Origin: a virus
Direction: 5' to 3' (one strand)
IMG/VR virus record: IMGVR_UViG_3300030202_001270
Coordinates: 1 to 31,347 of that record
Length of the DNA: 31,347 bases
How positions within the stretch are numbered: position 1 is the first letter of the stretch; each line of letters starts with the position of its first letter. The translations under genes were made by a program, and so were the position numbers. The notes below the pieces were generated by a model. The model was given only the letters and a program-made list of their open reading frames with translations, did no database searches and had not been told where the DNA came from. This document shows, in pieces, positions 4,596 to 28,451 of this stretch.

Positions 4596-5067
4596 TGGGA
4601 TACTATTCGATATAACAAATGGTAAAAGAAAATTTTTATGCTACACTCTCGAAGATGAAGACAGAGATGAAAAGGTACGTGGAGAAACTTGTATACCTGA
4701 AGGAGAGTACCGCCTCGGTATTCGAGATGTGGGTGGATTCCATCAGAAGTACTCTAAAAGATTTGCCGACATACATAAAGGGATGCTTCATGTCCTTGAT
4801 GTACCTAATTTTTCTTATATTCTTATTCATTGTGGTAATACCGATGAGCATACTGCGGGATGTCTTCTCGTGGGTGATACGCAAGAAAACAACAACATCA
4901 AAACAAACGGATTTATAGGTAAGTCAACAAAAGCATATATGAGGGTATACCCAGACATAGTAGATGCGGTTCTCTCTGGTGAGGAGTGCACTATTACGTA
5001 CAGAGACTTTGCCGAATGCCTTATACTACAGCAGGCCGATATAACTGAATTTTTCGGAGAATGCTAG
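4549..5067 (+). CDS. DUF5675-like protein, possible cell-wall enzyme
   Basis: 172 residues resembling DUF5675: a TLED.DRD.KV.GET.IP.G.Y region (residues 33-54) followed by a conserved H94-x-G96-N97 and G104-C105-L-L-V-G block. Its function is not established. The His...Gly-Cys spacing is reminiscent of the L,D-transpeptidase (YkuD) active site, with H94 and C105 as candidate catalytic residues, so a peptidoglycan-related role such as lysis is conceivable; that is inference. Its stop overlaps the start of the lectin-like gene at 5061. A +2-frame ORF inside it (4619-4918) could encode a membrane peptide. I see no separate conventional endolysin in the window. Confidence 0.8.
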   Translation: MKLEVIRFNKGVDSTNGILFDITNGKRKFLCYTLEDEDRDEKVRGETCIPEGEYRLGIRDVGGFHQKYSKRFADIHKGMLHVLDVPNFSYILIHCGNTDEHTAGCLLVGDTQENNNIKTNGFIGKSTKAYMRVYPDIVDAVLSGEECTITYRDFAECLILQQADITEFFGEC

Positions 5068-5798
5068 GTAGTATGGGAATGTCAGGGCCCAAGAGGCCAA
5101 AGAAGCCAAAAAAGCTAAAAAGGGTAAACAGCTGCATGCTTTTTGATGGTAATGACGATGATGCCATCATACCTATAAACAGCACCGCTTGGCCCAGCAC
5201 AGGTGATTTTAGCATATGCTTCTGGGCTGCTCCAGTAAATGGATCAGATGTCGATTGGTACTTTGGTCAAACAACTGGCAAAACCACCGCTTTGACATTC
5301 CAGCACGATAGCTTTAGTAAATTTCGATTTCGCATATCGTTTTCTAATTTAAACGCCGTAGACCTTCAAACGGTAGCAATGTCACGACTTACGAACAATC
5401 AATGGTACCATTTTGCAATAGTGGTAGACAGATCAAGCGCATCGAATAGTAAAATATACATTGATGGAAATGCAGCAAGCATGGATACTCAAACTGTAGA
5501 TGCTACAGCTGATATTAATATAAATAACGATCTGTATATAGCTAGAAATACAGCAACATCTCAAGATAGTGGATCTAAAAATATGAAGTGTGCTGACTTT
5601 GCTATATTTAGCGAAGCAATACCAGAAAAGCTTATAAAAAAGATGCATAGAGCTAAATGTAGATTAGATTTAACTAGAGGTAAGTTTTCGAAAGAGCTTG
5701 TATGCTATTACCGCCCAGGAATAAGTAATAGTGATTTTTCTGGCAATTTAGGTGATCTTACGGTTAGCGGAGCAACAATTGGCCAAGGTCACCCTTAA
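5061..5798 (+). CDS. LamG/concanavalin-like lectin domain protein
   Basis: 245 residues. After a basic, Pro/Lys-rich N-terminus (GPKRPKKPKKLKRV, residues ~9-22) comes a laminin-G/concanavalin-like fold: FSICFWAAP, later NQWYHFAIVVDRSS, KIYIDGNAA and LYIARN, then an ADFAIFSEAIPEKLIKKMH strand-helix end typical of LamG domains. Such domains bind glycans; on a phage they often sit on virion surface or tail proteins. ATG at 5061 overlaps the previous stop by seven bases; an in-frame ATG at 5073 is an alternative. The stop shares a TTAA with the stop of the convergent minus-strand gene. A glycan-binding role is inferred from fold. Confidence 0.8.
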   Translation: MLGSMGMSGPKRPKKPKKLKRVNSCMLFDGNDDDAIIPINSTAWPSTGDFSICFWAAPVNGSDVDWYFGQTTGKTTALTFQHDSFSKFRFRISFSNLNAVDLQTVAMSRLTNNQWYHFAIVVDRSSASNSKIYIDGNAASMDTQTVDATADININNDLYIARNTATSQDSGSKNMKCADFAIFSEAIPEKLIKKMHRAKCRLDLTRGKFSKELVCYYRPGISNSDFSGNLGDLTVSGATIGQGHP

Positions 5799-6217
5799 CC
5801 CTCAAGTTCTCTGTACACCCTCTGTACAAGAAGTCTAGCTTTTTGAGTTAACGCATATCTTACCCTGTAGTTGTATTTAGTCTCATCTCTAAACAGATGA
5901 TCTTCATATGTGTCAGATGGAGTTAACTTGTCGAAGTGTTTATATATGTACCCTTTATTAACCATGGGGTATATAAAGCGGTTCTGTGTATTGTTCTTAT
6001 TCATCCCCATATCCTTAGATGCATAGTCTATTGTAAAAAACTGTAGGTCATACCCCCATAATAGAAACTCTACCTGACTAAATGAGAGATCGGTATTTTT
6101 GTTTATATTACGTTTAACCTCTTTGAGTCTTTTAAGGTAGTTTCTTAGAATATATTTCTTATCTTGCAGAGCAAAATCTCTGAAAAGACGTTTCTTTGGA
6201 ACTCTACTTTTAGGCAT
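5795..6217 (-). CDS. Putative winged-helix (MarR-like) transcriptional regulator
   Basis: 140 residues, basic. Residues 43-138 read like a MarR-type winged helix: DLSFSQVEFLLWGYDLQFF (helix entering the domain), TIDYASKDMGMNKNNTQNRF (helix-turn-helix, residues ~62-81), YPMVNKGYIYKHF (recognition helix into wing), then VRYALTQKARLLVQRVYREL, the strand plus C-terminal helix usual in this fold. The minus orientation and near-abutting divergent start with the gene at 6222 suit a regulator controlling adjacent genes. The similarity is by pattern only, so the assignment is moderate. It could alternatively be an assembly protein with a wHTH domain. Confidence 0.65.
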   Translation of the reverse strand: MPKSRVPKKRLFRDFALQDKKYILRNYLKRLKEVKRNINKNTDLSFSQVEFLLWGYDLQFFTIDYASKDMGMNKNNTQNRFIYPMVNKGYIYKHFDKLTPSDTYEDHLFRDETKYNYRVRYALTQKARLLVQRVYRELEG

Positions 6218-6221
6218 TGAA

Positions 6222-6548
6222 ATGAATTTATTACGTAAAGATATGGAAGAACAGGCTTTTTTCTTAGAGATTCAGCGACTATCTATGGAAATAGATAAAG
6301 TCATTGATGAATATGGTATGCGTGATAGAGCTTTGTCTATTATGGTTACAGGTCTTATCGACCAGAACATATTTGGAGACACACGGATTAAGGCTATATA
6401 TAGTTATAGTCTGGAATCACAAGAAGAATTAGATAATATAATAAACTTTATTGACAACACCTGGGACGACCCTAATAAAAAAGAAGACACCTATTATAAA
6501 GATATAGACGATTTATTAGACGGAACGGGTATAGAATTAGAAGATTAA
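6222..6548 (+). CDS. Small acidic hypothetical protein
   Basis: 108 residues, helical and strongly acidic, especially the C-terminal third (DDPNKKEDTYYKDIDDLLD). It begins only four bases from the divergent start of the regulator candidate, so its promoter must lie inside that gene or be shared. It leads a run of small genes ending in the terminase. No motif or family recognised; an acidic DNA-mimic or regulator-interacting role would be speculation. Confidence 0.72.
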   Translation: MNLLRKDMEEQAFFLEIQRLSMEIDKVIDEYGMRDRALSIMVTGLIDQNIFGDTRIKAIYSYSLESQEELDNIINFIDNTWDDPNKKEDTYYKDIDDLLDGTGIELED

Positions 6549-13137: not shown

Positions 13138-13292
13138 GTATTACAATAAATACAACCACAGGGACTGTAAGCGTAACAGAGCCTGTTACAATAACAGCAA
13201 AAGCTACTGAGTCGTCTGTTATAACGGCTACGGCTACAAAGCCTACAAAATTAAATATAGAGGTTACACTTAATTCAAGATCATTAAGATGA
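13134..13292 (+). CDS. 52-residue Thr/Val-rich small protein
   Basis: An ATG-initiated frame overlapping both neighbours by ATGA. The peptide (SITINTTTGTVSVTEPVTIT, then AKATESSVITATATKPTKLN and IEVTLNSRSLR) has no aromatic residue and alternates Thr/Val as in a beta-rich structural protein. It is too small for many gene finders but the two four-base overlaps and the absence of any other gene in this 150-base interval make it likely real. Function unknown; perhaps a small virion component paired with the preceding protein. Confidence 0.72.
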   Translation: MSITINTTTGTVSVTEPVTITAKATESSVITATATKPTKLNIEVTLNSRSLR

Positions 13293-15502
13293 GATATATA
13301 CTATTAGCTTTATTTTTTATACCCTCTTTATTGTTTGCTCAGCCAGACGACGCAAGCTGGTTAAACGTAACATTACAGACAGATCAGTATGCTGGAGAGT
13401 CATCGTGGGAGATAATAAACTTAGATAGCATTGTGGTCGCTACAAATCCACCGCTTCAGAATAGTTCGCTATTGAATACAATGGTTTTTTTACCTGCAGG
13501 TGATTATAATTTTATTATGTATGATGCGTTTGGTGATGGTATATGCTGTTCATTTGGTAATGGCTTTTACGGGATAACGAACAACTGTGGTTTAGAGGAG
13601 TTTAATTATGAATTTGCTGGAGCTATAGATACGATACCATTTACGCTAACACCTTGTCTCCCTGTACTTCTTGGGTGTATGAACGAGGCTGCAGATAATT
13701 ATAACCCATGGGCCAATCAAGATGACGGCAGCTGTGAGGTTATAGAATGTGATTCACTTGAAACGCTTGTAACTATGGAGTTAACGCTAGACACATGGCC
13801 TGGCGAAACTGGATTTACAATAGTTAACATAGCAGACGGTCAGCCATATGAGCAGGTTATACCTGGGGAATTTGACTTTGGTGATCAACTGGCTACATAT
13901 ACATATGACTTTTGTGTGTCATTAGGCTTTGAGGTAGTCCTTGTTGATGAGTTTGGTGATGGGTTAAACGGTTTTGAATCAGGTGGTCAAGATGGCGGAT
14001 GTGTTGTTACTGCTTGTGACAGCGTTATATGGGAGTTAGAGGATTTAGCTTTTACAGAGTTTGGCGGTAATACTATGTACTCTGGCGCTATATTTACACA
14101 GCCGTGCCCTCCCGCACCTGACGTTTACGGATGTATGGATGATGACTATGTTGATTATAATCCAGAAGCTACAGTTCAGGACACCTGCATGACTTTACAT
14201 ACGTGGGGTTGTACAGATCCAGTGGCTATGAATTATGACAGCACAGCTACTATAGCTGACCTAAGCGGTCCCTGCAGTATACAGATTGTACTTCAAGACG
14301 ACGCTGGTGATGGTTGGGGTATGTCAGGTATTGGCATGAAGCAGGGAGATCAACAGTGGTTATTCACTATAGGTCCTGGCATATTCTCAGAGTCATGGGA
14401 TATTATCTTGGACTCTGATGAAGAGGTAGATATATACTACTTCCAAGATGGAGGTCAGCAATCTTCTTCACAAGAGTTGGCATTCCAAACATTACATAAC
14501 TCCGTGTATGCTATTAATGAAGCTGGAGATACATTGTTGTCTGAAGGGTCTAACCCATTCCTAAATAACGGACAAGGAGCTTTACAGCCATTTAGTGCTC
14601 CAGAGTGGAAGGTGTACCACTTCACACCATACTGCGGAGATAGTTGTATACCTTATATATATGGTTGTACTGATGAGACTGCATGTAATTACGATTCTGA
14701 TGCTAACACAAATTCTGATTGTAGCTACCCAGTACAGTATTACGACTGTAACAACAGCTGTATTAGTGACTATGATAGTGATGGGGTTTGTGATGAATTA
14801 GAGGTTGCAGGCTGTCAAGATCCTACTGCATTTAATTACAATGCATTAGCTACAGACGCTGGAGAGTGTATTCCAGTTATATTCGGCTGCACTGATCCAA
14901 CACAGTTTAACTACAATCCAGAAGCCAATACGGAGAACGGAAACTGCATACCTTTTATATACGGATGTATGAATCCAGATGCATTTAATTACAATCCAAA
15001 TGCCAATACAGAGCTTGAAGATTCATGTATTGAAGTATTGGTTGACTGTATGGACCCTAATGCGTTTAATTACAATGAGTTAGCTAACACCTCTAACGAA
15101 GAATTATGCTTATATGATGCTGGATGCATTACAGGACCTGGCAATCCATACTGGCTAAACAACGGGTGTTACGCATGGATTATAGATATTGACCCATACT
15201 GCTGTGAGGTTGAATGGGATGATTCGTGTATAGAGTTATATTCATACTGTGAGCAGGGTTGGCCACAGGGTGTATATGATATACACGATGTATACGGTAT
15301 ATACCCTAACCCTACAAGCGAGGTTCTGAATGTGCGGGCCCCCGAAGGTACTATAATCAGTATCTATAACACAACAGGACAGCTTGTAGTGGCTAGGACT
15401 ACAGATAAAGTCATTGACCTAACAAACCTACCTAAGGGTGTTTATAAGGTTGTAATGGAATACAATAAAAGAACTATTAACAAAAAAATTATTAAGTCAT
15501 GA
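13289..15502 (+). CDS. Secreted multidomain protein with T9SS type A sorting domain
   Basis: 737 residues. Signal peptide MRYILLALFFIPSLLFAQ (1-18). Beta domains with the FGDGxx motif (YDAFGDGICC, VDEFGDGLNG, DDAGDGWGMS) at ~85, ~220 and ~340. Eight GC.xxxAxNYNxxAxxxxxxC cysteine repeats at 129, 281, 307, 459, 508, 533, 559 and 586. A TSP3-like calcium stretch YDSDGVCDELEVAGC (~492-509). A T9SS type A sorting domain from about 670: IYPNPTSEVLNV, ISIYNTTGQLV, DLTNLPKGVYKVVM, KKIIKS. In Bacteroidetes, this domain sends cargo across the outer membrane, where it is usually cleaved or attached to lipopolysaccharide. Located between portal-proximal and envelope genes, coupled by ATGA overlaps. Its phage role is unknown. 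Confidence 0.9.
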   Translation: MRYILLALFFIPSLLFAQPDDASWLNVTLQTDQYAGESSWEIINLDSIVVATNPPLQNSSLLNTMVFLPAGDYNFIMYDAFGDGICCSFGNGFYGITNNCGLEEFNYEFAGAIDTIPFTLTPCLPVLLGCMNEAADNYNPWANQDDGSCEVIECDSLETLVTMELTLDTWPGETGFTIVNIADGQPYEQVIPGEFDFGDQLATYTYDFCVSLGFEVVLVDEFGDGLNGFESGGQDGGCVVTACDSVIWELEDLAFTEFGGNTMYSGAIFTQPCPPAPDVYGCMDDDYVDYNPEATVQDTCMTLHTWGCTDPVAMNYDSTATIADLSGPCSIQIVLQDDAGDGWGMSGIGMKQGDQQWLFTIGPGIFSESWDIILDSDEEVDIYYFQDGGQQSSSQELAFQTLHNSVYAINEAGDTLLSEGSNPFLNNGQGALQPFSAPEWKVYHFTPYCGDSCIPYIYGCTDETACNYDSDANTNSDCSYPVQYYDCNNSCISDYDSDGVCDELEVAGCQDPTAFNYNALATDAGECIPVIFGCTDPTQFNYNPEANTENGNCIPFIYGCMNPDAFNYNPNANTELEDSCIEVLVDCMDPNAFNYNELANTSNEELCLYDAGCITGPGNPYWLNNGCYAWIIDIDPYCCEVEWDDSCIELYSYCEQGWPQGVYDIHDVYGIYPNPTSEVLNVRAPEGTIISIYNTTGQLVVARTTDKVIDLTNLPKGVYKVVMEYNKRTINKKIIKS
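13673..15109 (+). repeat. Eight GC.xxxAxNYNP-type cysteine repeats (protein level)
   Basis: Inside the T9SS cargo gene, units of about 20-23 residues begin at 129, 281, 307, 459, 508, 533, 559 and 586. Each has GC (DC in the last), a D/N two positions on, Asn-Tyr-Asn/Asp near the middle and a final Cys. The last four are nearly tandem (spacing 25-27 residues), the first four scattered between larger beta domains. Repeats of this type are familiar in secreted Bacteroidetes proteins. Confidence 0.85.
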
Positions 15503-18314: not shown

Positions 18315-18734
18315 ATGGCAACAACAACCGCAACATTAACACTATCGAGCGCTGACCTAACTGGTGACGCTCTATCGTTGTCTACAACGACAACACTAAC
18401 TAAAGCTGGAACGCTTACTGGTTTAGATCAAACAACAGGTGTGGGTAGAAAAACTACTTCATCTACTTCACTATACAATCTTTTTGAGGGAGCAACCTAC
18501 ACAGCTGCTAAAGCTCATAAGATTTATGTAAAGAACACAAGCACTGTAGCTACTGAGTATGTTACAATTTCTATTGGTGATTCTGGAGGCACTCCAGAGG
18601 AGATCGGTAGATTGTACGCAGGAGACTGGATGTTTATGCCGTGGTCTGCGCACGACGCAGCAAACGACATCTGTGTTACACCTAGTGTCAGCACAGCTCT
18701 TACAGTTGAGTACGCACTTATATTCGAAGCATAA
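18315..18734 (+). CDS. Small beta-rich virion protein, family member 2
   Basis: 139 residues, Thr/Ser/Ala-rich. Motifs IYVKNTSTVATEYVTISIGD, EEIGRLYAGDWMFMPW and LTVEYALIFEA match the pattern shared with the proteins at 1130 and 18734. I recall this pattern from decoration-like proteins in marine phages (AGExxFxPW...IEYxLF). Likely a capsid or connector component; placed before the scaffold and capsid genes. TAATG overlap with the next gene. Confidence 0.78.
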   Translation: MATTTATLTLSSADLTGDALSLSTTTTLTKAGTLTGLDQTTGVGRKTTSSTSLYNLFEGATYTAAKAHKIYVKNTSTVATEYVTISIGDSGGTPEEIGRLYAGDWMFMPWSAHDAANDICVTPSVSTALTVEYALIFEA

Positions 18735-19153
18735 TGGGTTTACTCCGAGGCGCACTAACACTAACAAGTTCGGATGTACTAAGCATTCCGATCAACCTTA
18801 ACGTCGACGCATCATTTAATGCAGACGGTGGGTCTATTGGTCGCGCCAAGGTTTTAAAAACAGCTGTGCATAACAACGCTCTGGATCTATATGTGGCAGA
18901 CGATAAGCTAATTACAGCATATCTATATGCTAAGAACCTAGAAACAGAGAAAGAAAACTTTATGTATATCTACAATAACGCCAACTCAAACGATGTTGTT
19001 GCTAAGTTAGGCGGTGGTGAGTTTTGTTTTATCCCTGTTGCGGCGGATCAAAACTTAAAATGCTACGGGACAAGAGTAGATAGTATTATCGAGTTTGCTG
19101 TATTTGGACTAGATAGTTCAGCAGCAGGACCATTCATCGGATCTGGAGATTAA
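18734..19153 (+). CDS. Small beta-rich virion protein, family member 3
   Basis: 139 residues. Same pattern as the preceding gene: AYLYAKNLETEKENFMYIYN, VVAKLGGGEFCFIPVAADQN, SIIEFAVFGLDSS. The N-terminus (ALTLTSSDVLSIPINLNVD) differs. Side by side with its relative, this looks like duplication and divergence. Probable virion component. Confidence 0.78.
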   Translation: MGLLRGALTLTSSDVLSIPINLNVDASFNADGGSIGRAKVLKTAVHNNALDLYVADDKLITAYLYAKNLETEKENFMYIYNNANSNDVVAKLGGGEFCFIPVAADQNLKCYGTRVDSIIEFAVFGLDSSAAGPFIGSGD

Positions 19154-20131: not shown

Positions 20132-21241
20132 ATGGAAAACGAACAATTTGAAAAAGTGGAGATCTTTGATACTCCCGAACAACTTGCTGCCTCTATGCAG
20201 GCAGACGCACAAACCACTACAGAAGAGGCTCCACAGCAGGAGTCTCAACCTGTTTCTGAGCCTAATCAGGATCAGCCACCTGTAGACACTCAACCAGAGG
20301 TACAATCAGAACCCCAGGTAGAGCAACCACAAGAAACTACAGCTCCACAGGAAACTGTTGAGCAACAACAATATTCAGATGATCAGATAGAGACGGCTGT
20401 CCTCGAATACATGAGCGAAAGGCTCGGTACGGACATTAATTCTTTTGATGATTTTTTGGACACCCCGCAGGAGCAATCACCTCTTGATGAGAGAGTTGCG
20501 GCGATAGCAGAATTTGTCGAAACGACAGGACGCACGCCTCAGGATTGGTTCAAGTATCAGTCATTAAATCCGTCCGAAATGAACGATTTAACAGCCGTAA
20601 AGGTTGATATGGCAGCAAAATACCCGAACCTATCATCAGAAGAAGTAAACTTACTCGTTAGGAATCAGTACAAGTTTGACACCGAAAAAGATGGTGCTGA
20701 GCAGGTACAGTTATCGCAACTGCAACTTAAAATAGATGCTGAGAATGCACGTAAAAACATATTGGAGATACGTAATAAATACAAAGCTCCAAATGTGCAG
20801 GCTCCAGCAGAATCATTTGTTACCGACGACTGGGTTAACCAAATGGCTAGCGAGGTAAATGATTTGACTGGATTACAATTTGATCTAGGCAATGACAACA
20901 CCTTTACGTTTACCATTGACGATAACTATAAGTCTGAGTTAATAGATAAAAATACAAGGATAGAGGAATTCTTTGATCCGTTTGTACGTGAAGACGGAAG
21001 TTGGGACTTTGACGCTCTTTCATCACACAGAGCCGTTGCTGACAACATCGACCAAATCGTAAGCGCTGCTTATAGACAAGGTGTAGGTGATGGTCAGAAA
21101 GGGTTAGTGAATAAAGCAGCCAATGTGTCGACCGCCTCTCCACAACAAGGTACAAACACTTCTCAAACCGAAAGCCCTCTTGCAGAGCAGGTTAAGAATA
21201 TTATGAATCAAAACTCCTCTAAGATGACTTTTAAAATTTAA
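20132..21241 (+). CDS. Candidate capsid scaffold protein
   Basis: 369 residues directly before the major capsid candidate. Residues ~20-90 are low-complexity Gln/Glu/Pro/Thr (PQQESQPVSEPNQDQPPVDT, VEQQQYSDDQ); the remainder is acidic and helical (AVLEYMSERLGTD, QLQLKIDAENARKNILEIRN), ending EQVKNIMNQNSSKMTFKI. Composition, length and place fit a scaffolding protein that is removed from mature heads. No protease domain is evident. An internal head protein is the alternative. Confidence 0.72.
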   Translation: MENEQFEKVEIFDTPEQLAASMQADAQTTTEEAPQQESQPVSEPNQDQPPVDTQPEVQSEPQVEQPQETTAPQETVEQQQYSDDQIETAVLEYMSERLGTDINSFDDFLDTPQEQSPLDERVAAIAEFVETTGRTPQDWFKYQSLNPSEMNDLTAVKVDMAAKYPNLSSEEVNLLVRNQYKFDTEKDGAEQVQLSQLQLKIDAENARKNILEIRNKYKAPNVQAPAESFVTDDWVNQMASEVNDLTGLQFDLGNDNTFTFTIDDNYKSELIDKNTRIEEFFDPFVREDGSWDFDALSSHRAVADNIDQIVSAAYRQGVGDGQKGLVNKAANVSTASPQQGTNTSQTESPLAEQVKNIMNQNSSKMTFKI

Positions 21242-21254
21242 AAACTAAGAAACA

Positions 21255-22670
21255 ATGGCAACATTAGGAACAGATAGAACTGCATCTACAGGTAACTTGC
21301 CTCCGATTGACGGAGCAGCAGGTTCGTTTCGTATTAAACCAGAAACGTACACAACTGTAGATACACTTATCAAAACAACAAAAGATGAGGTAATGCCTAA
21401 CCTCGTTGAGACTTACGGTGATCAAGGTATTACTGGATTTCTTAAATTAACAGGGGCAATTAACAGCGGCGGATCTTCAGACCAGATTGACTGGTGGGAG
21501 GCAGGTCGTCGTCATAAGTCGTACTCATATGTAATTGGAGACGTTACAGATAACACAACTTCTATTACTGTAGCTGCAGGAACTGATAGTTTCTCTTCTA
21601 ACGTGCAGGCAAATGACGTAGTAATGGACAGCTCTACAGGAACACGTTTTATTGTTAAGTCTGGCGGATTCGGAACAGGATCAGCTGTAGATGTAGTAAT
21701 GGTTAAACTTGATGGATCAGCAGTAACTATTGCTTCTGACCTTGATCTTGTTGGTGGAGAGTTTATTAAGCTTGGCAACATGTATGCTCAAGGAACTAAC
21801 CAGCCTACTGCATTTGACGATTTCAACGCAGTGAGAAAGTCTAACCCATTCATGATCGTTAAAGATCGTTATGAGGTTAACGGATCACAGGCTACGAATA
21901 TCGGTTGGGTAAATGTAGGCGGTGGTGAGTACCGTTGGTTCATGAAGGGTGAGCAAGAGGCTCGCGCTCGTTTTGAGGATCGTCGTGAAATGATGATGCT
22001 TCTTGGACAACAGCACTCAGGTACTGCAGGAGCGGGACTTGCTAACGATATTGCTGGCTCTGAAGGTTACTTCGCAGCTATCGAGGATCGTGGAATTCAA
22101 GTTTCTAACGCTAACTCAAACCCACTTGATTCATTCTCTGAGTTCGATGATATTATCATGGAGCTTGATAAGCAAGGTGCGCCATCTGAGTACGCTATGT
22201 ACGTAAACAGAAAGCAAGACCTAGCTATTGACGATATGTTAGCATCAGGTATCTCTACATCAGTAAGCGCTGGTTTGCCTGGACAGTTTGGAGCATTCAA
22301 CAACGACGCAGACATGGCTGTAAAGCTTGGATTTAAGTCGTTTACTCGTGGTGGATACACTTTCCACAAGCACGATTGGAAGCTTCTTAACGATCCAACT
22401 CTTCTAGGTGCATCTAACTACATTCAAGGGGCTATGATTCCTTTATCACAAGTTACAGACGCGCGTAGCGGAATGAAAGCACCAGCTTTAGCTATGTACT
22501 ACAAAGAGGCTAACGGGTATAACCGTGAGATGGAGCACTGGGTAACTGGTAGCATCTTGGGTCATACTAATAACGGAGATCAGGGGCAAGACAACGCTGT
22601 CTTCCACTACCGTTCGGAGATTTCTTTATGTACTCGTGCAGCTAACCAGCACGTAATGATCAAAGGCTAA
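21255..22670 (+). CDS. Major capsid protein candidate (HK97-type)
   Basis: 471 residues following the scaffold candidate. Features consistent with a capsid: an early helix (TYTTVDTLIKTTKDEVMPNL), long beta regions with loops, FMKGEQEARARFEDRREMMM (a spine-like helix near 226-250), and MEHWVTGSILGHTNNGDQGQ near the end. Codon use is biased towards highly expressed codons: Arg is mostly CGT here, while neighbours prefer AGA, as expected for the most abundant virion protein. The fold is inferred; no sequence motif alone proves it. Confidence 0.85.
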   Translation: MATLGTDRTASTGNLPPIDGAAGSFRIKPETYTTVDTLIKTTKDEVMPNLVETYGDQGITGFLKLTGAINSGGSSDQIDWWEAGRRHKSYSYVIGDVTDNTTSITVAAGTDSFSSNVQANDVVMDSSTGTRFIVKSGGFGTGSAVDVVMVKLDGSAVTIASDLDLVGGEFIKLGNMYAQGTNQPTAFDDFNAVRKSNPFMIVKDRYEVNGSQATNIGWVNVGGGEYRWFMKGEQEARARFEDRREMMMLLGQQHSGTAGAGLANDIAGSEGYFAAIEDRGIQVSNANSNPLDSFSEFDDIIMELDKQGAPSEYAMYVNRKQDLAIDDMLASGISTSVSAGLPGQFGAFNNDADMAVKLGFKSFTRGGYTFHKHDWKLLNDPTLLGASNYIQGAMIPLSQVTDARSGMKAPALAMYYKEANGYNREMEHWVTGSILGHTNNGDQGQDNAVFHYRSEISLCTRAANQHVMIKG

Positions 22671-22697: not shown

Positions 22698-23036
22698 ATG
22701 AAATATTTTTACGTTAATACAGCGACTGACGACGCAAACGCAACACTAGAAGAAAGAATTTTTCCAGTAGACTCAATGATTTTGACCGACTCTACTAACG
22801 GAAAATTAGATCTTGTATTCAGTGGTGGTCTTCTTAAAGACGGAGGTACTGGAGCAAACTCTATAATTAGGTTAGATGTTGCTAATGCTAAAAGACGAGG
22901 TGTATTAGAGGCTATTGTTAATGAAGTTAACAAAGGCGGTGGTGATAATTTTATTGTCCTTGCGGATGATGAAAATTCAGTTTACTTCCACTCTGATATA
23001 ACAGCGGTTGTATGTGTAGCTGACGCAGCTAGCTAA
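22698..23036 (+). CDS. Small decoration-like protein (HSDIT family)
   Basis: 112 residues. KYFYVNTATDDA opening, RIFPVDSMI, GKLDLVFSGG, then FIVLADDENSVYFHSDITAV. The same motifs occur in the proteins at 23702 and 24022 and partly at 25423. Probably a capsid-decoration or fibre-base module given its place after the capsid gene. A short TTCG hairpin follows its stop. Confidence 0.8.
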   Translation: MKYFYVNTATDDANATLEERIFPVDSMILTDSTNGKLDLVFSGGLLKDGGTGANSIIRLDVANAKRRGVLEAIVNEVNKGGGDNFIVLADDENSVYFHSDITAVVCVADAAS

Positions 23037-23056
23037 TAACAGCTAAAACGTAAATT

Positions 23057-23073
23057 GGGCTTCGGCCCTCTTT
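23057..23073 (+). terminator. GGGC-TTCG-GCCC hairpin terminator (short)
   Basis: GGGC (23057-23060), TTCG tetraloop, GCCC (23065-23068), then TCTTT. The stem is only four base pairs and the T run is interrupted, so it is weaker than the terminator at 23661 but shares its TTCG loop. It ends the capsid-decoration unit or attenuates transcription. Confidence 0.5.
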
Positions 23074-23113
23074 ACAATTAATTTTTAAAAACGAAAAAAA
23101 ATAATAAGAAAAT

Positions 23114-23638
23114 ATGGATGAATTAGTTTTAAGTAAACTTGATGTTCAGTCATTAGTTAGCCCATCGGTTAATTACACTAAATCAGAGGTAATTACAGAC
23201 GACGGAGACGGCACAAGAACACTTCTTGCTTCAGAAGCAGGAACAGTATTCTTGATTGATGACGCAGAATTAATCGTTATACTACCAACCGTAACTCAGG
23301 ATATGGTCGGATCAAAATATAAGTTTGTTATAGCTGAAGAAGAAACAACAGGCTTAACAATTAAGACGCAGGGTAATACACATTACCTTAATGGATACGC
23401 TGTTATTACAGCTGGTGCAGCCGTTCCCCAACTGTGGGTTCCAGATGGAAACTCAAACTCTGAGTTAAACCTAAATGGTACAACTTCAGGTGGTAGAGGA
23501 GCAGGTGCAACAGGTGATACAGGAAACATTAATGTGCTTGAGTTCACTTGCATTAACGGCGGCCCTGGTGCTGCATGGTTTGTAGAGGCTCATTTACATG
23601 GTTCTGGAACAATCGTAACACCATTTGCTGATCAATAA
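23114..23638 (+). CDS. Capsid decoration-like protein
   Basis: 174 residues, beta-rich. LLASEAGTVFLIDDAELIVI, LPTVTQDMVGSKYKFVIAEE and TTGLTIKTQGNTHYLNGYAV follow a common phage tip/decoration theme (ITLPTV...GxxYxFV...TGLTI). C-terminal Gly-rich FTCINGGPGAAWFVEAHLHG. An A-rich stretch precedes the ATG. Followed by a strong terminator. A head-decoration or fibre role is inferred. Confidence 0.75.
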   Translation: MDELVLSKLDVQSLVSPSVNYTKSEVITDDGDGTRTLLASEAGTVFLIDDAELIVILPTVTQDMVGSKYKFVIAEEETTGLTIKTQGNTHYLNGYAVITAGAAVPQLWVPDGNSNSELNLNGTTSGGRGAGATGDTGNINVLEFTCINGGPGAAWFVEAHLHGSGTIVTPFADQ

Positions 23639-23660
23639 TCAGTAATAAACTACTACAAGA

Positions 23661-23688
23661 AAGGGGCTTCGGCCCCTTTTTTATTTTT
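23661..23688 (+). terminator. Strong intrinsic terminator with TTCG loop
   Basis: AAGGGGC (23661-23667), TTCG, GCCCCTT (23672-23678) followed by TTTTATTTTT. A seven-base stem with a stable tetraloop and T tract. The -7 box of the next unit starts immediately after it at 23690. Confidence 0.88.
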
Positions 23689-23689
23689 G

Positions 23690-23697
23690 TATATTTG
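23690..23697 (+). promoter_or_regulatory. TATATTTG box, leaderless start
   Basis: TATATTTG begins two bases after the terminator and the ATG at 23702 follows four bases after the box. It matches the -7 element. The upstream space that would hold a -33 element is occupied by the terminator hairpin. This fixes the start at 23702 rather than the TTG at 23687 inside the box region. Confidence 0.6.
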
Positions 23698-23701
23698 TGA
23701 T

Positions 23702-24022
23702 ATGCTTAAATACTTGTTCTTTCAAAACGGTACAGATGATTCTGCTCTAATGCCAGCAGGAAATCTTGTTGATATGGAGATAAGCTCTGACGGGACCGAC
23801 TTAACTATGTCGTTTAAAAGCTTGCTGCAGTCAAAAGGTGTAAACTACTCTATAGTACTTTCCATAACAGAGGATACAGGTAGGCAGGTTATGTCTGAAA
23901 TTGTTGATGAGATAGTACTTGGGGATAATCCATTTATAACAATAGCCGATGAGGCAAACAGTGAGTTTATACATTCCGATATAACAGCTGTAGAGACAAC
24001 ATTAGACGGAAGTTTTCAATAA
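23702..24022 (+). CDS. Small decoration-like protein (HSDIT family)
   Basis: 106 residues. LKYLFFQNGTDDSALMPAGN, LTMSFKSLL, IVDEIVLGDNPFITIADEAN, SEFIHSDITAVETT parallel the protein at 22698. It uses the ATG at 23702; the TTG at 23687 would begin inside the promoter. TAATG overlap to the next member of the family. Likely virion decoration. Confidence 0.8.
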   Translation: MLKYLFFQNGTDDSALMPAGNLVDMEISSDGTDLTMSFKSLLQSKGVNYSIVLSITEDTGRQVMSEIVDEIVLGDNPFITIADEANSEFIHSDITAVETTLDGSFQ

Positions 24023-24858
24023 TGGCTGCTGATCCAAATAAAAAGTTTTTATATTTTAATAAAGATGGTACATCTGGTGAGATGGATGAATCTCTATGTT
24101 TCCCTGTATCTAGTTTTATAGGTGCTGAAACTCAAAGTCTCTCGCAGATTGACTTGTATTTTAAGGGATCTAAAGGCACAGATGCAACTCAAGTTAGGAT
24201 TGTTATAGACACTGGTTTTATTAATATAAAGAATTTCTACAAAAAATTAGTTGATCAGATTAACTTTGGCGAGATAGCCTTTATAAAGGTAAATGACTAT
24301 GCAGAGAGATCTACTCATCAATCTGATGTTACGTTTGCAATAACTGCCGATGTAGTCCCTACATTTACTTTGCAGGACAATGTTCTTCTTGCAGAATCAA
24401 TTACTGTTACTAACAATACGATTACAGATTCTTTAAGAGCTACCTCAAGAAATATCCCAGTAACTCATTTATATGGAGAATCAGCTGGATCTCATGAAGG
24501 AGATATAATATTTCTCGGTAGTACATCTACAACTGCAGGTAAATTATATCACTATAAATCAGATGGCACATGGGAAGAGGCTGATGCAGATGCAGCTTCT
24601 ACGTGCGATGGTTTACTAGCTGTTGCTCTAGGGACTAATTCTGCATCAAGTGGTATGCTACTAAGAGGTACAGTTACATTAAGTCACGATCCAGGCGCAT
24701 TAGGCGACGTATTGTTTGTATCCACAACAGCGGGTGAAATAACAGCAACTGCTCCTTCTGGTTCTGGGGACATAGTAAGAATTGTTGGGTATTGTTTACA
24801 CGCAACAGGCGGACAGATATGGTTTAACCCAGACGGAGCGTTTGTAGAGGTAGCATAA
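24022..24858 (+). CDS. Head-fibre-like protein: HSDIT-type N-domain plus C-terminal beta domain
   Basis: 278 residues. N-terminal domain (1-~115) has KFLYFNKDGTSG, CFPVSSFI, IDLYFKGSKGT, AFIKVNDYAERSTHQSDVTF, related to its neighbours. A linker follows, then C-terminal domain (~150-278): GDIIFLGSTSTTAGKLYHYK, GLLAVALGTNSASSGMLLRG, TVTLSHDPGALGDVLFVSTT, VGYCLHATGGQIWFNPDGAF, a domain familiar from phage head fibres and decoration proteins. Likely a trimeric exposed fibre. TAATG overlap with both neighbours. Confidence 0.8.
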   Translation: MAADPNKKFLYFNKDGTSGEMDESLCFPVSSFIGAETQSLSQIDLYFKGSKGTDATQVRIVIDTGFINIKNFYKKLVDQINFGEIAFIKVNDYAERSTHQSDVTFAITADVVPTFTLQDNVLLAESITVTNNTITDSLRATSRNIPVTHLYGESAGSHEGDIIFLGSTSTTAGKLYHYKSDGTWEEADADAASTCDGLLAVALGTNSASSGMLLRGTVTLSHDPGALGDVLFVSTTAGEITATAPSGSGDIVRIVGYCLHATGGQIWFNPDGAFVEVA

Positions 24859-25406
24859 TGCCAACAGTAATAATAAGACCAGACGGAGACACGACAGTAG
24901 GTAGCTTTTCAAACACACCTATTAACGCTGTTTTATCAGATAGTAACGATGCTACGTTTACGAACAACACGGCCCAAAACCAAAGTTTTATAGTTAGTCT
25001 TGATGACGTTAGTTTAAGTGGAGCTACGTTTAATTCTTGGACTATGACTGTCCGCGCAAAAAAAGGCGGTAAGGGTAATGCTTCTTGTAACGCTAGACTT
25101 TTTGATTCAAGTTTTGCCGTAAACCACGTGAGTAGTCTTAGCATAACTTCAAGCAGCTATATAAACCATGCGGCTGGAACTGCTAGTTTTCCTAGCGGGT
25201 TTTCAGAAAGCGACGTTAACAACTTATCTGTTAGGATAGACACAACGGGCGGTACGCAGGTCTTTATAGCTGAAATATATGTAACAATCGACTACACGGC
25301 AGCAAGCGGTTATGGACAAAATGTAAATACTGTAGCAGCTGCTAATATAGGGAAGGTAAACTCTGTAGCTACAGCCAATATAGGTAAAGTCAATAGCGTT
25401 GATTAA
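24858..25406 (+). CDS. Beta-rich virion protein with C-terminal IGKVNSV repeats
   Basis: 182 residues. A beta domain (VIIRPDGDTTVGSFSN to VFIAEIYVTIDYTA) ends in two copies of an 11-residue unit (ANIGKVNSVAT, ANIGKVNSV). Short tails with IGKVNGV-like repeats are known to me from other phage decoration or fibre proteins, where they may mediate trimerisation or attachment. TAATG with the previous gene; followed after 4 bases by a promoter box. Confidence 0.78.
   Translation: MPTVIIRPDGDTTVGSFSNTPINAVLSDSNDATFTNNTAQNQSFIVSLDDVSLSGATFNSWTMTVRAKKGGKGNASCNARLFDSSFAVNHVSSLSITSSSYINHAAGTASFPSGFSESDVNNLSVRIDTTGGTQVFIAEIYVTIDYTAASGYGQNVNTVAAANIGKVNSVATANIGKVNSVD
25341..25403 (+). repeat. Two 33-base direct repeats encoding ANIGKVNSV(AT)
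   Basis: Copies begin at 25341 and 25374. They differ mainly at third codon positions (GGG/GGT, AAG/AAA, GTA/GTC, TCT/AGC), so the protein sequence is conserved more than DNA. Confidence 0.8.
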
Positions 25407-25410
25407 TTAG

Positions 25411-25418
25411 TATATTTG
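25411..25418 (+). promoter_or_regulatory. TATATTTG box, leaderless start
   Basis: TATATTTG four bases before the ATG at 25423, with the same local layout as the boxes at 23690 and 27702. No terminator precedes it, so it may add transcripts to read-through. A -33 TTTG is not apparent. Confidence 0.58.
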
Positions 25419-25422
25419 CAGT

Positions 25423-26787
25423 ATGACCAGAAAGTTTTTTTTATTCCGTAGATCAGATCCAGTAGGGCCCGTAAAAAGAATTTCAGACAACGGTAAAGAC
25501 ATACCGATTCTTGCTATCCCCGCCGACAAAGTAGCTTTTGTATCTGCAGGTAAGGGTGAAATAAACATGACGTTTAATGATGCCAGCATATATGAAGATA
25601 ATGAAATGCTTGCTGGGGATTCTATTGAAAAAACAAACATAACCATAGCGTGCAGGCAGGGTGAGGAGATGTCTATGATAGAGAAAATATTAATCTTTGC
25701 AGGTAGCACAACGGGGAAACCTATAATGAAATTTGATGTGCTTGAGAGCTCGTCACCTCTAAAGGAGGCGGTTTTGGAACAGGTATCAAATATGGTTGCT
25801 AAGATTAAATCTCAACCTACAGAGCGTGTTACGCAGAAAGTGAGTACAGGGGATGTATCTACTAGATTTTTAAATGTTATAGGCGAGATAAATTTTGGTA
25901 GCAGAGAAAATAGGCCTTTTGTAGATTACAATCATGAAAGTATGTATCCTGTTGACAATACAGACATTGTAGCTGTCGCTGCAGCTGAGTGGAAGAATGC
26001 GGGCACGGGGGGTGCTGTATACGACATAACAGGAGGAACTGGCTCTGTAACTACACAGACTGAAGCCACAGCTGCTGATGTAGGGCTTGGCCAGATATGC
26101 GCTCAATTTGCATCCAATTCATTTCTAGACGTACCAGACATTACTGTTAAAGACGATTACACTATGTATTTTGTTATAGGTGACGCAGGTTCTGGATCAG
26201 GCGGTGAAGGATTTGGTGTGTTGTTTGGTGACGATGATGGAGAGACAACAGGTTTTTCTGGAGCTGGAGCTGCTAGCTCTTTTTCCATGAGGCATGACGG
26301 TTTGGTGGGTAATCCGTTTAAAGTAAGCACAAGCACATCTACAAGCGGTACAGAATCGTACTCTTTTCCAGACCCATCATCGATAGCGTCTATAGGTGAA
26401 AGGCAGTTTTGTTACCCATTTGTTATAAGAAGAGATAAAGAGTTTAATATGTATCTTTACAACTTTGAGGGCGAGGTGGTTGCATTTGCGCCAGCATTTA
26501 CGATAAAATCTACAGCTAAGCCTAATTTAAAAGAAATAGGATCGAAATATAAAGAATTAGATAAAAACAAACAGGGAGGTAAATTAAAAACAAAGGTTAC
26601 AGAAGGAACAGGAGGTAGAACTGATGGAAACTTATTGATACAACAGCTTGGCAGTTCTGGAAGCAACGTAGCAAATAGCTTTTCAGGTACCCTCGGTAGA
26701 TTTGGTGTAATAACGCGAGATATTGGTGAGGCAAATTGTTCTAAATTAGCACAAGATTTGTACGAACTGTACAAACCGACAACATAA
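25423..26787 (+). CDS. Lectin-like fibre protein with HSDIT-related N-domain
   Basis: 454 residues. N-domain (1-~110): RKFFLFRRSDPVG, IPILAIPADKVAFVSAGKGE, INMTFNDAS, ITIACRQGEEMSMIEKILIF resembles its neighbours without the HSDIT end. From ~165 a concanavalin/LamG-like domain: YTMYFVIGDAGSG, FGVLFGDDDGETTG, FCYPFVIRRDKEFNMYLYNF, LGRFGVITRDIGEANCSKLA, with QDLYELY as the typical final helix. Suggests a particle-attached glycan-binding protein. Transcribed from its own box at 25411. Confidence 0.78.
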   Translation: MTRKFFLFRRSDPVGPVKRISDNGKDIPILAIPADKVAFVSAGKGEINMTFNDASIYEDNEMLAGDSIEKTNITIACRQGEEMSMIEKILIFAGSTTGKPIMKFDVLESSSPLKEAVLEQVSNMVAKIKSQPTERVTQKVSTGDVSTRFLNVIGEINFGSRENRPFVDYNHESMYPVDNTDIVAVAAAEWKNAGTGGAVYDITGGTGSVTTQTEATAADVGLGQICAQFASNSFLDVPDITVKDDYTMYFVIGDAGSGSGGEGFGVLFGDDDGETTGFSGAGAASSFSMRHDGLVGNPFKVSTSTSTSGTESYSFPDPSSIASIGERQFCYPFVIRRDKEFNMYLYNFEGEVVAFAPAFTIKSTAKPNLKEIGSKYKELDKNKQGGKLKTKVTEGTGGRTDGNLLIQQLGSSGSNVANSFSGTLGRFGVITRDIGEANCSKLAQDLYELYKPTT

Positions 26788-26804: not shown

Positions 26805-27644
26805 ATGACAAAGGAAAAAGTGGCTACTGAGGCCCCTAAAACTCAGACGAAGGTGGCTGTAGAGCCCCAAAAGGTTGCCCCGAAGGCACCGCCTAAAAAG
26901 ACAAGAAATATCAAGCGTAAAGAGCAGATTCTACAGCATGCTGAATACGAGATACCTAAAAACGCTGGGATTGTATATATGCTCCCGCAGAAGGGTATTA
27001 CAGTATATGATGCTGAGAAAGATACTGTACGTGAGATGCGCTACTGTCCAAATGAGCCATCTATATGGGCTGACGAACAGGGCGATAATGCACGCAAAGA
27101 AACTGTTGCGTTTAGAGAGGGTAAATTGTTTGTACCAAAGGATAAGCCAAACCTACGTCAGTTTATGGATCTACACCCTATGAACATGTCTAATGGCGGC
27201 AAAATCTTTAAGCATGTTGATAAAAAGAAAGACGCTGAAAACGAACTTAAGAAAGAGTTTAAGCTCACTGAGGCGGTCGCTATGGTAAGGGATAAGGACA
27301 TCAACGAACTACTCCCTATTGCTCTTTATTTCGGCGTAAACATAAACACACCTGTATCTGAGATAAGATACAATCTACTGAATATTGCAAAGAAGAAGAC
27401 TGAGGAATTTATCCAATCGTTTGATTCTCCGCAGGTTCAGGTTAGATCAACAATACAGCAATCTAAGGATTATCAAATTATTAATCTTAAATCTGATGGT
27501 TGTTACTGGTTTGACACAAACAAACTAATAGTATCTGTTCCTGTTGGACAAGACTCTATGGACGTTATGGTGAGATTCTGTCTTACCGAGAAGGGATCCC
27601 CTGTATTATCTACTATAGAAGAAAGGTTAGATAGACTGGGATAA
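26805..27644 (+). CDS. Virion-region protein with Lys/Pro/Ala-rich N-tail
   Basis: 279 residues. Residues 1-~42 are Lys/Pro/Ala/Thr-rich (EAPKTQTKVAVEPQKVAPKA) and likely disordered. The body includes YEIPKNAGIVYMLPQKG, PSIWADEQG, LFVPKDKPNLRQFMDLHP and helical FKLTEAVAMVRDKDINELLP, ending VRFCLTEKGSPVLSTIEERL. I do not recognise a family; it precedes the connector genes and a terminator. A structural or assembly role is likely from place. Confidence 0.75.
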   Translation: MTKEKVATEAPKTQTKVAVEPQKVAPKAPPKKTRNIKRKEQILQHAEYEIPKNAGIVYMLPQKGITVYDAEKDTVREMRYCPNEPSIWADEQGDNARKETVAFREGKLFVPKDKPNLRQFMDLHPMNMSNGGKIFKHVDKKKDAENELKKEFKLTEAVAMVRDKDINELLPIALYFGVNINTPVSEIRYNLLNIAKKKTEEFIQSFDSPQVQVRSTIQQSKDYQIINLKSDGCYWFDTNKLIVSVPVGQDSMDVMVRFCLTEKGSPVLSTIEERLDRLG

Positions 27645-27713: not shown

Positions 27714-28451
27714 ATGGCTAGCGTACAAGCAGTATATAACTCATTAAAGGATCTGACGAACAAGGAGCAGAAAGGATTTATTACTCCTCAGATATTCAAT
27801 TCATTAGCCTCATTGGCTCAAATGAATATTTACAATGAGTTTTTTACAGAACTTGTTGATGCCAAAAAACTATCTAGACAAAACCTTGAGCTGGGTAGGG
27901 ATAAATCTGTAAGAAAATTTAAGCTTGAGGATTTGTCGTTTATGGTGAGAAACGCTACAATTGACTCGTCTGACAATGTGTTTAATAGGCCAGATGATCT
28001 ATCAAGAATTATATCTATAAGGGTTAACAATACTTTTGATTTTACAGGCTCAGACTCAAGAACGCTATGTGAAACACTATATGATGCGGGTAAGATGGAC
28101 GCTATATTGGGTAGTAACCTATCTACACCTACCGAATCATTTCCTGTAGCCTTAATAGGTAGAGAGATTGAGGTGTTCCCAAGTACAATTAATTCTGTAA
28201 TTGTAACGTATTACAAAAAGCCTACATCGTTTGAGGTAGGTACTAGGGATGAGTCACCTCTACAACCGTCATATAATGCATTTGAACAGTTTGATGGTTC
28301 TCTACAGTTTAACCCGATAGGTAGTCGTGATTTTATGTTACCAGACCACTGTATACCTGAAATTGTTAACGAGATGGCTAAGTTATTGGGTGTACGCTTA
28401 AGGGATCAGAACGTACAGGTAACAGCAACAAGAGAAGAAGCTAGTGAGTAA
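27714..28451 (+). CDS. Head-tail connector/ring protein candidate
   Basis: 245 residues. SLKDLTNKEQKGFITPQIFN and SLASLAQMNIYNEFF at the N-terminus resemble podovirus ring proteins (NKxQ.G.ITP..FN..A..AQ..I...F), a type found in Crassvirales-like phages. Later MLPDHCIPEIVNEMAKLLGV and RLRDQNVQV are helical, as at the base of such adaptors. Starts an operon with two further tail genes, coupled by TAATG. Connector role is inferred. Confidence 0.75.
   Translation: MASVQAVYNSLKDLTNKEQKGFITPQIFNSLASLAQMNIYNEFFTELVDAKKLSRQNLELGRDKSVRKFKLEDLSFMVRNATIDSSDNVFNRPDDLSRIISIRVNNTFDFTGSDSRTLCETLYDAGKMDAILGSNLSTPTESFPVALIGREIEVFPSTINSVIVTYYKKPTSFEVGTRDESPLQPSYNAFEQFDGSLQFNPIGSRDFMLPDHCIPEIVNEMAKLLGVRLRDQNVQVTATREEASE

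Follow-up and report, generated by a model that had tools for sequence, protein, structure and literature searches.

What do the small proteins encoded directly behind the major capsid protein gene of an uncultured phage have in common, and where on the virion would they sit? This question is raised by the IMG/VR virus record IMGVR_UViG_3300030202_001270, analysed here over its whole length (positions 1-31,347; hereafter, the window). Its major capsid protein (MCP) gene (21255..22670; PHROG 13704, 'virion structural protein', E 2.4e-114) is the upstream neighbour of an array of six open reading frames (ORFs), A to F; all of these genes lie on the + strand. An original prediction held that A, C, D and F share one N-terminal module, bare in some and fused to a fibre or a lectin domain in others, and that this module docks on the capsid to mount different surface functions. 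We found these four ORFs where that prediction placed them. A (22698..23036) and C (23702..24022, an ATG start within a TTG ORF starting at 23687) are bare modules of 112 and 106 amino acids, respectively. D consists of a module (residues 1-118; 24022..24375) and a fibre-tip cargo, Dc (residues 119-278; 24376..24858), and F of a diverged module (residues 1-130; 25423..25812) and a predicted ConA-like jelly-roll domain (residues 151-454; 25873..26787). Two proteins absent from the prediction belong to the same array: B (23114..23638), a cargo-type protein in which a short N-terminal peptide (approximately residues 1-18) precedes a domain in place of the module, and E (24858..25406), a protein of 182 amino acids.

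Direct local alignment revealed one shared module of about 105 residues in A, C and D: the alignment z-scores were 18.4 (A-C), 9.9 (C-D) and 7.9 (A-D), and none of 1000 shuffles reached the score of any pair. The N-terminus of F was undetectable pairwise against C and D (977/1000 and 243/1000 shuffles, respectively, reached the score) and marginal against A (9/1000); because F could not be recognised pairwise against C or D, its kinship needed a profile test. A hidden Markov model (HMM) seeded with A, C and D recruited 65 distinct bare modules in its first pass and none of 50 distinct F proteins. Comparison of these 65 modules with the 50 F N-termini by hhalign gave a probability of 96.6 and an E-value of 6e-10, while five other families of the same loci, included as controls, reached at most 0.4%. 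Similarly, the bare-module HMM detected 44 of the 50 F N-termini at E<0.01 (E 0.0019 for the F of the window), compared to 0 of 100 reversed or shuffled controls.

The structural models agree with the profile comparison. The AlphaFold model of C (pLDDT 89) contains strands at residues 4-9, 13-18, 22-27, 33-38 and 48-55, a helix at 60-73, and strands at 78-83 and 94-102; that of F (pLDDT 84) contains strands at 5-9, 29-33, 37-43, 46-51 and 71-77, a helix at 82-94, and strands at 101-105 and 124-128. Compared by element order rather than by superposition, both models thus show eight elements in the identical order b-b-b-b-b-a-b-b. The original prediction had named unrelated N-domain folds as its refutation, and these did not appear in C and F, the two members that were modelled. 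Together, these data indicate that the N-terminus of F is a diverged copy of the module. The sequence motif by which the family had been described fared less well: it fits A and C, and D loosely, but F lacks its HSDIT element. Could the similarities instead reflect convergence among small, beta-rich phage proteins? The absence of pairwise similarity between F and either C or D would be expected in that case. However, the shuffling results already refute convergence for A, C and D, and the hhalign match of the F family, its five negative controls and the common element order of the two models make it highly improbable for F as well.

All 10 matches of the module in BFVD at E<=0.001 are uncharacterised or unnamed viral proteins (four from 'uncultured virus', two from 'Virus NIOZ-UU157' and four nameless), the best being A0A218MM55 (E 1.2e-13, 58%). 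Neither profile search (best E 0.087) nor fold search gave a significant match in the PDB, which is weak evidence of a new fold. Pfam gave nothing above cut-off for the modules of A, C, D and F (best sub-threshold match: sCache_3_2, E 0.023, for A). PHROGs yielded nothing usable for the window members and, for 72 modules, one weak match (one member; phrog_19210, E 0.00097, function unknown). The best VIA-align rows for the module, pleckstrin-homology (PH) domains (Z 6.1 to 3ulc, rmsd 3.9, 70 aligned), lie within the background of the tool; given that a PH domain is also present in the auxiliary capsid protein of crAss001 (PMC10172136), this resemblance is retained purely as a lead.

What, then, does the module carry? 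D is, from its sequence, a chimera of the module and a fibre tip that other phages encode elsewhere. Its module is 80.5% identical (95/118 residues) to the module protein of L012 (L-numbers label the relative loci, or sources, collected for comparison), whereas the C-terminal half of that protein is only 26% identical to Dc. Dc is 62% identical (98/157 residues) to the fibre tips of L049 and L074, whose fibre genes follow the gene after the portal gene and start approximately 5-5.5 kb upstream of the MCP gene. Dc also shares homology with the C-terminal end of a protein of the Flavobacterium phage Immuto that is annotated 'tail fiber protein' (42%, E 1e-25): the matching stretch, 6001-6459, stops 6 bases short of the end of the coding sequence (4729-6465), which lies in a tail operon beside the tail sheath and tube genes. 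Matches to Dc occurred in 4 of 50,697 phage records, all of them Immuto. One alignment, of D with modules and fibre tips together, was discarded: the bare modules had landed on the C-terminus of D.

The fibre tip occurs in other arrangements as well. In L009, the module sits on a 548-amino-acid, repeat-rich, shaft-like protein that ends in the tip; similar proteins in L007 and L027 are truncated where the contig stops. Among the 60 loci in which the post-portal gene is visible, the tip lies upstream in 29, in the array in 3 and in both places in none, an exclusivity that rests on the three array cases and would arise by chance with a probability of about 0.13 (worked by hand). The E family (15 ORFs, including that of the window) follows the tip in both settings: its members lie beside the Dc gene in the arrays of L009 and L086, and relatives lie upstream of the MCP gene in, for example, L074, L049, L024 and L060. 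L086, which holds the F closest to that of the window, is 63% identical to the window in MCP, 88% in C, 89% in D (module 83%, cargo 94%), 48% in E and 87% in F, and carries a 157-amino-acid gene in place of A and B; these identities imply that the capsid gene has had a different history from that of the array.

The cargo of F is of another kind. Residues 148-454 align in VIA-align to domain 4 of AbnA (5hon_A; Z 16.5, rmsd 2.8, 189 aligned; Foldseek E 1.2e-5) and to the tailspike of the cyanopodophage Pan3 (9vyh_p; Z 16.3, rmsd 3.5, 222 aligned), and 451 of 1000 chains match at Z>=8, as expected of a ConA-like jelly-roll fold. Clostridial neurotoxins also appear in the list through their binding domains, which have this fold; this implies nothing about function. 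No LamG or ConA model was among the Pfam families matched by 49 F proteins at E<0.1, so the assignment holds at the level of fold, not of family. From the fold, we predict a ConA-like lectin that may bind carbohydrate. Elsewhere in the window, 5061-5798 (+) encodes a second lectin-like protein, with an above-cut-off match to Laminin_G_3 (PF13385, E 1.4e-13).

Comparison of 83 distinct F proteins showed that it is this domain that changes between phages. Among the 34 pairs with modules at least 90% identical, 17 have C-terminal domains less than 70% identical, while no pair shows the reverse pattern; the 17 pairs fall into four groups of loci and are not 17 independent events. Mean identity in such pairs is 0.92-1.00 over residues 1-130, 0.78 at 131-150, 0.60 at 151-170 and 0.37-0.39 at 171-240; the fall, between residues 131 and 200, coincides with the domain boundary. 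The original prediction had proposed asking which C-terminal domains vary between related phages, and both the F pairs and the comparison of D with L012 gave the same answer: cargo differs past the boundary while the module stays. One domain is thus reused, either bare or with different C-terminal domains, including a fibre domain recognised by homology to Immuto and a lectin domain recognised by fold.

We found that cargo is also carried without the module. We clustered 27 non-F module cargos with 91 module-free array proteins, using pairwise search with a length condition; single linkage with iterated profiles was dropped, as it chained 96 of the 118 sequences into one group. The non-F cargos form nine groups, or eight without one that is cut by a contig end, and four of these also hold module-free proteins; an iterated B profile would join the cargo group of L013 and L031 to that of B, leaving seven or eight. 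B belongs to one of the four groups found with and without the module: its domain follows the module in L046 (E 3.9e-9 to B residues 30-172) and L082 (E 3.6e-6 to B residues 28-125). Likewise, the fused cargo of L082 matches residues 19-180 of a free protein of L138 (E 2.3e-69, 112/162 identical, 69%), so that the same cargo starts at residue 19 in one phage and follows the module in the other. Twenty-two module-free proteins, picked by pattern and so giving no frequency, open with either an MNELILSKLEV-like or an MGHFDKLQAK-like peptide, followed by different domains. The two peptides resemble each other, and this short N-terminal peptide may represent a second docking element.

These observations bear on the possibility that, rather than docking, the module mediates the oligomerisation or folding of surface proteins, with the bare copies as hetero-oligomer partners. 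A bare module directly precedes a module-cargo gene in the window (C-D) and in L012, L039, L047 and L067, as such partners might. On the other hand, the same cargo occurs module-free in other genomes, and F stands without any other detected module in 30 of 80 complete arrays (described below), so we consider this explanation improbable.

How widely is the array distributed? A single-protein search with A among viral contigs found no relative, and MCP and F served as bait instead. A search of genome contigs with the F of the window found no relative, and tblastn against the 50,697 phage records was likewise negative for A, B, F, the F protein from L163 and a module of L013. The best 80 of 282 IMG/VR relatives of MCP were kept. 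Across the 86 sources collected to that point (the window and its fragment L002 included), an iterated profile search identified 158 module ORFs, distributed over 68 sources and all located downstream of MCP in their locus. A scan with the F family then added 80 of the 94 F relatives detected among 127 candidate stretches, many of which lie on contigs already in the MCP set; MCP is present in the locus of all 80 F-fetched stretches. Merging both sets and dropping 48 duplicates and 33 incomplete loci left 80 distinct complete arrays, from MCP to the gene at 27714. Every one contains exactly one F, which precedes the gene at 26805 (g26805) in 66 arrays and follows it in 14; bare modules are present in 43, a non-F module with cargo in 21, and F alone in 30. 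Because the merged set was partly fetched with F, the MCP-fetched set gives the fairer count, and there all 51 complete intervals contain F (the window and some near-duplicate contigs included). In a tree of non-F modules (130 tips), at least 6 switches between bare and cargo-bearing states occurred, compared to a shuffled mean of 28.7, and this low number indicates that the state is mostly inherited. In a tree with an F clade, two ORFs labelled as cargo-bearing fall inside that clade and probably represent F genes truncated by contig ends. In L010, L023, L024 and others, the first gene after MCP encodes a family of 144-179 amino acids with a QPANS-type motif (a cluster of 35).

In contrast to F, which is universal inside the clade of the window, no module ORF was found in the stretches of approximately 25 kb from four sister phages with a homologous capsid (L001, L003, L004 and L005: Elemovirus, phi38:1, Panino and phi13:2), a distribution expected of accessory decoration proteins. 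The array begins directly after MCP; its downstream border in most loci is g26805 (26805..27644, +; PHROG 34748, no function), and the next conserved structural gene, at 27714, belongs to PHROG 14543, of the class 'head and packaging'.

These data led us to favour, with some reserve, a reading in which the module attaches to the virion exterior in this clade, with the capsid shell as the most likely site, and carries exchangeable cargo. On this reading, the domain of about 105 residues (five strands, a helix and two strands) would be the docking element, and its bare copies small decoration proteins. The cargo-bearing copies would hold a C-terminal fibre tip (D), a ConA-like lectin (F) or, in relatives, one of some six or seven further groups. 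F, with one copy per genome, would be the fixed component of the array, and turnover would affect its lectin. Recombination close to the boundary between module and cargo would swap the cargos, some of which would also ride on proteins with just a short N-terminal peptide, such as B. The cargo may serve adhesion to host or environmental glycans. Of the original prediction, a shared mount for different functions is supported by the data; its placement on the capsid rests on gene position.

In the principal competitor to capsid docking, the module acts as an adaptor on the tail or neck, and its paralogues assemble, on the tail or at the portal vertex, into an adhesin complex; adjacency to MCP would reflect no more than the clustering of structural genes. 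Consistent with such a placement, the fibre tip borne by D is encoded within a tail operon in Immuto, and the F lectin has the Pan3 tailspike among its best matches by fold. Yet the array lies between MCP and a head-and-packaging gene, a separate post-portal fibre gene is kept in 29 of the 60 loci, and several bare modules per genome would be hard to fit on a short tail. We judge a tail or neck location unlikely on balance, while giving it more weight than oligomerisation.

Co-variation with the capsid protein did not decide between head and tail. Mantel tests were re-run after removing near-duplicate contigs, which reduced the loci from 124 to 77 and from 86 to 51. Non-F modules track MCP weakly (partial correlation 0.22, 1/1000 permutations; 0.15, 11/1000, with g26805 also held). 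Several results weigh against capsid docking. The F module does not clearly track MCP, either after de-duplication (0.09, 52/1000, and -0.015, 594/1000) or with near-duplicate contigs still included (-0.05, 433/500), a point that also favours the tail. The lectin half of F, expected to stand off the shell, correlates with MCP (0.16, 7/1000); since neighbouring genes recombine together, linkage alone can give correlations as large as those of the non-F modules. That the lectin half tracks MCP about as well as these modules makes the case for the capsid slightly weaker and that for the tail slightly stronger. The non-F modules of L050 and L053 are 33% identical although their MCPs are 97% identical. 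Finally, the module matched no known capsid-binding fold in sequence and fold searches of the PDB, and our literature search found no virion proteomics or structure for the clade.

Other genes of the locus show stronger signals. The F module correlates with g26805 (0.23, 0/1000) and g26805 with MCP (0.62 and 0.38, 0/1000 each), suggesting that the product of g26805 may contact the capsid protein. In 26 pairs sharing at least 85% identity in the gene at 20132, the non-F modules fall below 60% in 25; the F module stays at >=90% in 20, and MCP at >=90% in 2. In the pair L074-L090, MCP is 70% identical within a near-identical backbone (the gene at 20132, g26805 and F, 97-99%). The pointers to the capsid are thus the position of the array after MCP, the absence of the module from the four sister-phage stretches, and the weak tracking of MCP by non-F modules, which linkage might produce as well. 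We infer that gene order favours the head, while co-variation, weak for non-F modules and unclear for that of F, does not discriminate.

A docking domain with a variable display domain is already known from Hoc, pb10 and the crAss001 head fibres. In Hoc of T4-like phages, a conserved capsid-binding domain is combined with variable display domains, and some phages encode two Hoc-like proteins; that of PG7 has an N-terminal docking domain and a lipase-family C-terminal domain (PMC10385173). The array resembles Hoc in its constant mount and variable display; however, T4 Hoc docks C-terminally and shows strings of immunoglobulin (Ig) domains, its capsid binding is demonstrated, and the accessible part of that report mentions no tandem bare modules (PMC10385173), whereas capsid docking is proposed for the present module. 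No Ig model was among the Pfam matches of A-F, and the F cargo is predicted to be ConA-like. The T5 decoration protein pb10 likewise has a conserved N-terminal docking domain and an exposed C-terminal domain but, according to the portion of the report available, it is a single protein with an alpha-helical docking domain and an Ig-like cargo (PMC5292684). The crAss001 head fibres gp21 and gp29 place two docking N-termini with different C-terminal domains on the shell of a Bacteroidota phage, and resemble the short-peptide proteins such as B; their capsid-binding parts are residues 1-38 and 1-58, and a tandem family of ~105 residues is not mentioned in the available part of that report, which also describes a PH domain in the auxiliary capsid protein (PMC10172136). 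Modular Ig-like adhesins of gut phages, many of them Bacteroidota phages, also combine surface domains variously; they use Ig, BACON and PKD domains, and the accessible text mentions no shared docking module (PMC13370021). We found no description of the module in the literature searched (titles and abstract openings, with subscription papers mostly outside reach). What sets the present array apart is a tandem family with bare members, a cargo pool used both by the folded module and by the putative peptide mount, and the absence of any significant match to the module in the PDB searches run. A broader proposal follows from these features, and we hold it tentatively: a module of undescribed fold and a peptide mount would share one cargo pool of fibre tips, lectins and further domains, forming a combinatorial platform by which capsid exteriors are re-equipped, even with receptor-binding tips from tail fibres, through recombination at fixed junctions.

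Which phages, and which hosts, does this concern? Relatives of MCP occur in 85 of the 50,697 phage records, every one below 60% identity; they are structural proteins of the Flavobacterium Elemovirus, of Cellulophaga phages (phi38:1, Calle) and of the Maribacter phage Panino, that of Calle_1 being annotated as a structural/major capsid protein. The clade probably comprises uncultured marine phages akin to Pervagoviridae and Elemovirus, falling in marine Bacteroidetes phage group 2. For that group (PMC5332604) and for Pervagoviridae (PMC8776804), structural proteins homologous to those of Cellulophaga phi38:1 are reported, as here, and the available parts of both reports do not mention a surface array. 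The host is probably a marine member of the Bacteroidota, an assignment with which a type-IX sorting tail agrees: a 737-amino-acid protein (13289-15502, +) has a C-terminal sorting domain for type-IX secretion (PF18962; above cut-off, E 3.9e-11). Homologues of this protein are present in L007 and L012; a phage protein addressed to the type-IX secretion system of its host would be unusual. The window also encodes a further set of small proteins of similar size (18315-19153, +), upstream of the gene at 20132. In L009, L007 and L066, four consecutive ORFs are akin to those at 18315 or 18734, and within the window these two are linked only through such relatives.

Uncultured phages, likely of marine Bacteroidota, here provide a case of modular surface display that is visible in sequence, with a candidate docking domain and its cargo junctions. 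Our results predict that the adhesion of the particle can change while its capsid protein stays the same, and, if the module does bind the shell, it could be used as a display handle.

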